DNA of 38,996 bases, from contig JACQFF010000209.1 in the NCBI GenBank assembly GCA_016200205.1, positions 1 through 38,996 on the forward strand. Direction: 5' to 3'. Made by a program: the position numbers and the translations under genes. Shown here piece by piece: positions 33,201 to 34,878 of this stretch (positions are counted from its first letter, which is position 1; each line of letters opens with the position of its first letter). The stretch is from Planctomycetia bacterium (lineage in GTDB: Bacteria > Planctomycetota > Planctomycetia > Pirellulales > PALSA-1355). The notes beneath the pieces are model-generated. The model had not been told where the DNA came from and did no database searches. It saw only the letters and a program-made list of their open reading frames with translations.

Positions 33201-33519
33201 CGCCCGGCGTTTGGAGAAGGCCGGCATCGGCGTGCAACACGTCAATAAATTGCAAGAAGGGCAACCGAACCTGCTCGACTTTTTGATCGACGGCGCGATT
33301 CAATTGATCATGAACACTCCCAGCGGCAAGGGAGCTCGCACCGACGAGGGCAAGATCCGCTCGGCCGCCGTGGCGCGCGGCGTGCCTTGCATTACCACCA
33401 TCCAAGCGGCCGATGCCGCCGTCAAGGCCATGGAAGCGCTACGCAACGAACCGATCACCGTGCAGGCGCTGCAGGATCGGTTTTCGACGCTGGACCCAGT
33501 GCCGGCGCAGAAACGTTGA
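30244..33519 (+). CDS. carB: Carbamoyl-phosphate synthase large subunit
   Basis: 1,091 residues against ~1,073 in E. coli. It makes carbamoyl phosphate from bicarbonate, ammonia (delivered from glutamine by CarA) and two ATP, for pyrimidine and arginine synthesis in the cytoplasm. Both ATP-grasp halves are present: [18 protein letters not shown] at the start with [16 protein letters not shown], and [19 protein letters not shown] with [13 protein letters not shown] in the second half. The C-terminal allosteric domain ends with [20 protein letters not shown], typical of the MGS fold. I place the start at GTG 30244, preceded by AAGGGAAGG and giving [16 protein letters not shown] as in other CarB proteins; a start at 30184/30190 would add 18-20 residues without homology. 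carA is not adjacent. Confidence 0.95.
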
Positions 33520-33601
33520 GTACAATTCCGGCAGGTTCGAGGTCCGACCCAAGGACCTAGTCGGGATTGACACGCACTTGCGAATCGGTACACTCCTCTT
33601 G

Positions 33602-33712
33602 GCCCACAATTTGTGGCTGAAAGGTGATGGAGTTCACCGAAAACCGCCCCGGACTGTCACGACCGTGGCTGATGACTCCTGCCGACGCTCGGTAGGAGTC
33701 TTTTCTTTTTAT
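33602..33712 (+). ncRNA. Riboswitch-like leader RNA of the antiporter gene, nhaA-I (Li+-I) type suspected
   Basis: The 5' leader shows ordered structure. CCACA/TGTGG forms a small stem (33604-33616). GGTGA (33623-33627) pairs with TCACC (33634-33638) around the loop TGGAGT. GCC-C-CGG (33646-33652) pairs with CCG-T-GGC (33663-33669). Loop bases GGAGT (33629-33633) are complementary to ACTCC (33675-33679), which is the 5' arm of the downstream terminator. So a pseudoknot and the terminator exclude each other, as in a transcription-attenuating riboswitch. The downstream gene encodes a cation:proton antiporter. Known leaders with this gene association include nhaA-I, nhaA-II and the Na+-I (DUF1646) class; nhaA-I is my best guess from recall, not from a search. 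Confidence 0.6.
33674..33710 (+). terminator. Strong intrinsic terminator in the antiporter leader
   Basis: GACTCCTGCCGA (33674-33685) pairs with TCGGTAGGAGTC (33689-33700) over 12 positions with one G-U pair, around the loop CGC. It is followed at once by TTTTCTTTTT (33701-33710). It lies only 13 bases before the antiporter ATG (33724) with GGAG in between, so it must be conditional or the gene could not be expressed from upstream. Confidence 0.85.
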
Positions 33713-33723
33713 GGAGCGGACAC

Positions 33724-34878
33724 ATGGATCCGACCTATGCAGCGGCGTGGGTTGCACTGCTGATTTTTGTAGCCAGCGTTCTTTCGGTGGAAGCGGCGTT
33801 GTCAGCCGCAATCATTGAAATCGCGGCCGGAGTCGTGGCCGGGAATTGGCTCGGACTCGACCCCGCTCCGTGGATGGACTTCGTGGCTGGGTTTGGAGGC
33901 ATCCTTTTGACATTTCTGGCCGGCGCGGAAGTCGATCCAAAGATGCTCCGAGCAAAGCTGAAGGAAAGCCTGCTCATCGGGGGGTTTTCCTTTCTGGCGC
34001 CGTATTTTGCTGCGATTGGGTATTGCTACTGGGTCGCCCATTGGACGTGGCCGGCATCACTTATCGCGGGCTGTGCCTTGTCCACGACGTCCTTGGCTGT
34101 CGTGTACGCGGTTCTCGTCGAGAGCGGACTTACCGACTCCAACATTGGCAAGACCATGATGGCGGCGACTTTCGTCACCGACATGGGTACTGCCCTTGCT
34201 CTCTCGGTTACATTCGCCGAATGGAGTGTGCGAACTGTTTGGTTCTTGCTGATTTCTGCCGCAATCATTGCACTGGCACCGCGTTACCTTCCGCGAGTTT
34301 TTCAGCGATATGGAGCAAGGGTCATTGAGCCGGAAATAAAATTGCTGTTCTTTCTGCTGTTTGTGTTCATGGCATTGGGCAAGTGGGGCCAAAGTCACGC
34401 TGTCCTTTCGGTTTTCGTGCTGGGGCTTTCCTTGGCCAAAATGTTTCGGGAACACATCGAGCTGCAACGGAAACTCAGGGTTATCGCCTTTGCGATGATT
34501 ACGCCCTTCTTTTTCATCAAAGGCGGAATGAACGTGTCATTGCCAGAAGTGTTGGCGAACTGGGAATTGCTGGTCATGCTCTTAGGGGTCAAGACCGCGG
34601 CCAAATTCATCGGGGTTTGGCCTCTTGCCAAGCGGTATGCCAACGACCACGCCGCCTATCTGACGCTGCTGATGAGTACCGGCTTGACGTTCGGCACCAT
34701 TTCGGCGATGTACGGCTTGCAGGCAGGATATATATCTTCGTCGCAGTTCTCCGTACTCGTGGCGGTGGTCATCGGCACGGCGATCGTTCCGACTTTTGTT
34801 GCGCAGAGATGGTTTTCACCGGACCTCCCGGAACAAGTGCAAGAGGAGCTGCTTGCACAGGAGGAGGAGAGCATCTAG
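33724..34878 (+). CDS. Cation:proton antiporter (CPA2-type membrane domain only)
   Basis: 384 residues and about 11-13 membrane segments. The pattern fits monovalent cation:proton antiporter-2 proteins: FGGILLTFLAGAEVDPKMLR (residues 58-77), GCALSTTSLAVVYAVLVESG (116-135), then an ion-binding helix where the position of the paired Asp of NapA-like proteins reads T152-D153 (FVTDMG), leaving a single acidic residue. Late segments include PFFFIKGGMNV and LLMSTGLTFGTISAMYGL. There is no C-terminal RCK/TrkA-N domain, so it is not a full Kef-type channel. It should exchange Na+, Li+ or K+ for protons. GGAG lies 7 bases before the ATG. Expression is probably controlled by the leader RNA and terminator directly upstream. 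Confidence 0.88.
   Translation: MDPTYAAAWVALLIFVASVLSVEAALSAAIIEIAAGVVAGNWLGLDPAPWMDFVAGFGGILLTFLAGAEVDPKMLRAKLKESLLIGGFSFLAPYFAAIGYCYWVAHWTWPASLIAGCALSTTSLAVVYAVLVESGLTDSNIGKTMMAATFVTDMGTALALSVTFAEWSVRTVWFLLISAAIIALAPRYLPRVFQRYGARVIEPEIKLLFFLLFVFMALGKWGQSHAVLSVFVLGLSLAKMFREHIELQRKLRVIAFAMITPFFFIKGGMNVSLPEVLANWELLVMLLGVKTAAKFIGVWPLAKRYANDHAAYLTLLMSTGLTFGTISAMYGLQAGYISSSQFSVLVAVVIGTAIVPTFVAQRWFSPDLPEQVQEELLAQEEESI

Follow-up and report, generated by a model that had tools for sequence, protein, structure and literature searches.

A candidate fluoride exporter with a cation/proton-antiporter fold behind a planctomycete fluoride riboswitch

Fluoride riboswitches and the genes behind them

Transcriptional fluoride riboswitches of the Bacillus cereus crcB type are built from a P1 hairpin, a P3 arm and a pseudoknot around a conserved core, and one strand of the pseudoknot doubles as the base of an intrinsic terminator. 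This overlap is the established switch of the transcriptional members of the class (PMC11077080; also PMC13273304). The genes of the fluoride-riboswitch regulon include that for FluC (CrcB), a family of small dual-topology channels, and that for CLC-F, a protein of a different fold for which F- transport is proven. A 2024 review that draws on earlier riboswitch studies places Na+/H+ antiporters as the next commonest genes after the exporters, which it names as Fluc and CLC-F, and reads the riboswitch-linked antiporters as serving pH homeostasis (PMC11139923). That antiporters lie behind fluoride riboswitches is already known; that one branch of them exports fluoride is what we predict here from sequence. 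A literature search of limited coverage returned no report of fluoride transport by any CPA protein, an absence that is no proof.

The locus considered here lies in a stretch of 38,996 nucleotides from a Planctomycetia bacterium (contig JACQFF010000209.1; hereafter the window). It has the same P1, P3, pseudoknot and conserved core as the B. cereus riboswitch, and its pseudoknot strand likewise forms part of the terminator base. The interest of the locus lies in the gene and not in the riboswitch: an antiporter with an altered ion site stands where FluC or CLC-F might be expected. We call the branch to which this antiporter belongs CPA-F.

The leader RNA upstream of the antiporter gene

RF01734, the fluoride riboswitch (crcB motif), is the sole Rfam 15 match in the window. 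The aptamer occupies positions 33614 to 33688 of the + strand, which carries all features described below, and matches the full-length model (1–64) with a score of 52.4 bits (gathering score 34; E-value for the whole window 7.1e-12). A permissive scan of 33300–33900 returned nothing besides RF01734 at E up to 5; where an Rfam model exists, this covers nhaA-I, nhaA-II, Na+-I, DUF1646 and yybP-ykoY. The sequence-only reading of this DNA had suggested that the leader may be a divergent member of a cation-sensing class or a new class, on the strength of the downstream antiporter gene and of a pseudoknot combined with a terminator. Given the full-length match with its conserved core and the lack of any other Rfam family up to that E-value, we regard the chance of a cation riboswitch as negligible. 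A covariance-model match and compensatory changes in homologous leaders, the lack of which that reading had taken as grounds for dropping its proposal, are both in fact present.

The individual parts of the leader can be placed precisely. A sigma-70-like promoter, TTGACA-N16-TACACT (33567–33594; 10/12 matches in a consensus scan, and a consensus match only), precedes the aptamer, and a putative GGAG ribosome-binding site (33713–33716) lies 7 nt 5' of the ATG; both had been missed in the sequence-only reading. The P1 hairpin (33623–33638) consists of a GGTG/CACC stem, with two-sided changes at 3/4 pairs in homologues, and the loop ATGGAGTT. Within this loop, GGAGT (33629–33633) forms the first strand of the pseudoknot and pairs with ACTCC (33675–33679), again with compensatory changes in homologues. 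The intrinsic terminator (33674–33710) comprises a 12-bp stem (33674–33700) with a loop of 3 nt, which folded alone gives -21.4 kcal/mol, and the tail TTTTCTTTTT (33701–33710), which ends 13 bases before the ATG at 33724. The + strand of the window contains no other T-tailed stem of at least 11 bp; when the whole window was shuffled by dinucleotides, 2/40 shuffles contained one. Because the ACTCC strand lies wholly within the 5' arm of the terminator, pseudoknot and terminator are mutually exclusive. The complementary strands, the placement of ACTCC in a 12-bp T-tailed terminator, the distance to the gene and the mutual exclusion had all been described in the sequence-only reading and are borne out.

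Covariation supports this architecture. Across 27 homologous leaders, all five pseudoknot pairs are paired in 100% of cells, with two-sided changes at three of the five (GGAGU/ACUCC, GAGGU/ACCUC, GAGGC/GCCUC), and the score for the whole structure is 0.407, whereas shuffles score 0.184 and slid controls no more than 0.142. As in the window, where the terminator stem spans the second pseudoknot strand and so provides an expression platform, terminators overlap this strand at seven other loci (L005, L007, L009, L012, L014, L015 and L022). An overlapping terminator was looked for and not found at most of the remaining loci, including all those from Actinomycetota; leaders of this kind may act by translational control.

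Based on these data, we consider it virtually certain that the leader at 33614–33710 is a transcription-terminating fluoride riboswitch; what it recognizes is almost certainly the anion fluoride, bound to Mg2+. Of the mechanism suggested in the sequence-only reading, the general part, in which a ligand stabilizes the pseudoknot and blocks termination, is supported, whereas the proposed ion-sensing class gives way to RF01734 and fluoride. In the absence of fluoride, the ACTCC strand would go into the terminator and the transcript would stop before the gene; with fluoride present, the Mg-F complex would lock the pseudoknot, block the terminator and allow expression, presumably making this an ON switch in this organism as well. 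The leader differs from the RF01734 class in its longer P3 arm (the match spans 75 nt, the model 64 positions) and in its downstream gene, but these differences do not set it outside the class, and the riboswitch is an ordinary member of a well-studied family.

Fold and predicted ion site of the CPA-F protein

The gene behind the leader (33724–34878) encodes a CPA2-fold antiporter of 384 aa. PF00999 (E 7.5e-39) is its only Pfam match, in keeping with the earlier description of a CPA2-type antiporter that lacks an RCK domain, and the same Pfam search gave neither a PF02537 (FluC/CrcB) match nor the PF00654 fold of CLC-F. The CPA2 model TIGR00932 scores 95.9 bits, below its cut-off of 238.3. An AlphaFold model of the protein (mean pLDDT 86.4, pTM 0.85) has as its best solved-structure match NapA (5bz2; Z 40.8, rmsd 4.0, 367 aligned), and also resembles KefC (8bxg; Z 29.7, rmsd 3.9, 362 aligned). 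CPA2 membership is thus indicated by both the family profile and the NapA-like fold. The protein shares this fold, the TM5 aspartate and the TM10 lysine with KefC and with NapA of Thermus thermophilus, but is only ~19% identical to them, has no RCK domain and is preceded by a fluoride riboswitch.

Alignment to NapA shows how the ion site of the branch has changed. The essential D157 of NapA corresponds to D153 and K305 to K294, so that the canonical cation-antiporter pair is retained, while D156 corresponds to T152, a position that is T or N in CPA-F members and D in most relatives. A lysine at position 290 is found in 35/35 CPA-F members and in 0/22 relatives. Both crossover motifs, in TM4 and TM11, are altered (LSTTS and STGLTFGTI), and the TM11 segment is without an acidic residue in 33/35 members. 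In one profile alignment E333 of NapA falls on T322, a column that is unsure since part of the outgroup places its Glu at G324. In KefC and NapA, the two half-helices have positive ends that a TM11 glutamate neutralizes, and the lysine of NapA forms a pair with its second aspartate (PMC11150392). One further variant, which speaks against the exporter proposal made below, concerns the locus L007, in which Asn replaces the otherwise conserved TM5 aspartate D153.

We infer from the sequence comparison that the site, with its reduced number of acidic residues, its additional lysine and several Ser/Thr residues, has the look expected of an anion site. The published alternative is that the riboswitch drives a Na+/H+ or K+/H+ antiporter for pH homeostasis under HF acidification, with fluoride leaving the cell by another route (PMC11139923). 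The fold and the D/K pair are indeed those of cation antiporters; the loss of the second acid and the gain of a fixed lysine, however, do not point to an improved cation site, and together with the genome distribution described below they lead us to consider this reading rather unlikely. It is also conceivable, with still lower probability, that the switch controls a Kef-like K+/H+ exchanger, in which case proton influx would lower the pH gradient and less HF would be trapped as F-. An L-S-S-T motif has been assigned to K+-selective Kef-like exchangers (PMC6181914), and the TM4 stretch of CPA-F, L119-S120-T121-T122, resembles it, as do T/N at position 6 and K at position 8 the corresponding residues of Kef-like electroneutral exchangers. 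CPA-F proteins, however, have no RCK domain, their TM11 motif STGLTFGTI and K290 differ from the aligned Kef-type and other CPA2 relatives, and collapse of the pH gradient would be costly to the cell.

We propose instead that the CPA-F product would lower cytoplasmic fluoride in organisms that have neither FluC nor CLC-F, most likely by exporting F- itself, with F- moving out against H+ moving in. The route would run via D153 together with two lysines at the helix crossover, K290 and K294. A role for CPA-F in fluoride detoxification is very strongly indicated. As for the ion transported, the balance tips slightly toward F-, and the explanation as a whole, in which riboswitch and antiporter form a fluoride-lowering, F--exporting system, appears reasonably probable. 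Were CPA-F to move fluoride, the large family with the cation-antiporter fold would include an anion exporter.

Distribution of CPA-F among genomes and plasmids

The CPA-F branch is monophyletic (100/100 support) and contains the window protein and 32 other members. Homologues with 52–76% identity come from genomes labelled Elusimicrobia, Hydrogenedentes, Deltaproteobacteria, Eisenbacteria, Bacillota, Microgenomates, Bacteroidetes, Ignavibacteria and Actinomycetota, and RF01734 lies upstream in 18/18 of those from named genomes. It is also found upstream of three of the four matches with 35–43% identity in the window's own order (L024–L026); in the fourth (G045), stop codons interrupt the gene, and the stretch examined contains no RF01734. 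In the phylum sample, RF01734 adjoins the gene or its operon in 14/15 carriers, one of which (G152) scores 30.4 bits, under the gathering score, and the fifteenth carrier is cut by a contig end. Nearly every intact member of the branch therefore has an upstream fluoride riboswitch. The linkage ends outside the branch, with RF01734 at 0/14 of the more distant CPA2 loci scanned (at most 29% identity to the window protein).

The phylum sample comprises 392 genomes, among them 15 CPA-F carriers, each from a different family, several of these families having FluC in sister genomes. FluC scores above its cut-off in 235 of the 392, and CLC-F, called by its GREGT motif and in most cases also by GNNL, occurs in 20, one of them a fragment. 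Proteins taken for CLC-F by E-value in G127, G182, G236, G256 and others have GKEGP and no GNNL, and were ruled out. FluC is present in 1/15 CPA-F carriers (about 9 expected) versus 234/377 other genomes (Fisher p 1.8e-5), and FluC or CLC-F in 1/15 versus 254/377 (p 2.7e-6); among high-quality genomes alone the exclusion is 0/5 versus 145/212 (p 0.004). Since the sampled genomes are related, these p-values are guides only. CLC-F provides a yardstick: although unrelated to CPA-F in fold and sequence, it too sits behind fluoride riboswitches and excludes FluC, which is found in 0/20 CLC-F genomes (Fisher p 5e-9). CPA-F and CLC-F occur together in none of the 392 genomes.

The pattern extends beyond this sample. 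The 18 carriers from other phyla have neither FluC nor a CLC of the CLC-F type, and when the four from the window's order are added, FluC appears in G064 only, and such CLCs as occur, few in number, belong to the chloride type. The window's own genome has no FluC above cut-off and no CLC. A sub-threshold FluC match of 21.6 bits on its contig C305 was rejected, as translation gives no convincing FluC frame. Against the exporter reading, CPA-F and FluC co-occur in G326 and G064. Many genomes have none of the three proteins, so an exporter is not obligatory.

Both known exporters are absent from 14 of the 15 phylum carriers, and CPA-F thus behaves as an alternative exporter and not as a helper gene. 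This speaks against the pH-homeostasis reading, because a helper should accompany exporters and not substitute for them. The Kef-like reading accommodates the same pattern, since such an exchanger could itself replace an exporter. FluC, whose channels are unrelated to the CPA-F antiporter, seems to have been replaced by it. We regard the branch as a promising candidate for a fluoride exporter that has so far escaped notice. There is about an even chance that it represents a third kind in bacteria, in which a cation/proton-antiporter fold would have been turned to F- transport through loss of the second TM5 acid and of the TM11 glutamate and gain of K290; the branch would then take the place of both known exporters across many phyla and travel on conjugative plasmids.

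The gene in the window was probably acquired by transfer, as judged from the protein tree, where it clusters with Hydrogenedentes and Elusimicrobia and not with members from its own order, and from its absence in the one other genome of the genus. Plasmid relatives of CPA-F amount to 38 records, including conjugative plasmids of Klebsiella and relatives. RF01734 is present in all three plasmid homologues checked (L140, L141, L142); annotated operons among these pair the antiporter with Usp, under the mere label of cation:proton antiporter, and that on the Klebsiella plasmid NZ_CP084857.1 (L140) reads antiporter, Usp, MutS, MutS. The plasmid-type operon occurs in 1/5426 complete E. coli genomes. 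Enterobacterial plasmids carry CPA-F into hosts that probably have a chromosomal crcB, a further point against the exporter reading. If the proposal is true, genes labelled 'cation:proton antiporter', some of them on such plasmids, will need renaming as fluoride resistance.

Fluoride riboswitches were also seen before other genes. At L078 and L079 (genomes G125 and G256, both also without FluC), one precedes a different antiporter-like family with a DD motif and no match to the CPA-F profile. At L094, L095, L101 and G360 (L136:5296-7098), all in family f63 of the phylum, fluoride riboswitches precede a dynamin-like GTPase (PF00350), often as two or three successive copies ~2 kb apart; our limited literature search found no paper that treats fluoride riboswitches and dynamin together. 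The same stretch of G360 holds a CPA-F antiporter that is extended at its N-terminus (665 aa); behind it lie two genes that we name, from their sequence, formate/nitrite-transporter-like. A second link of the dynamin-like GTPase to fluoride is found in two Deltaproteobacterial loci (L009:3661-5801 and L022:3205-5308), where the order is riboswitch, CPA-F, a gene of Usp size (in L009 identified as Usp by Pfam) and then the GTPase.
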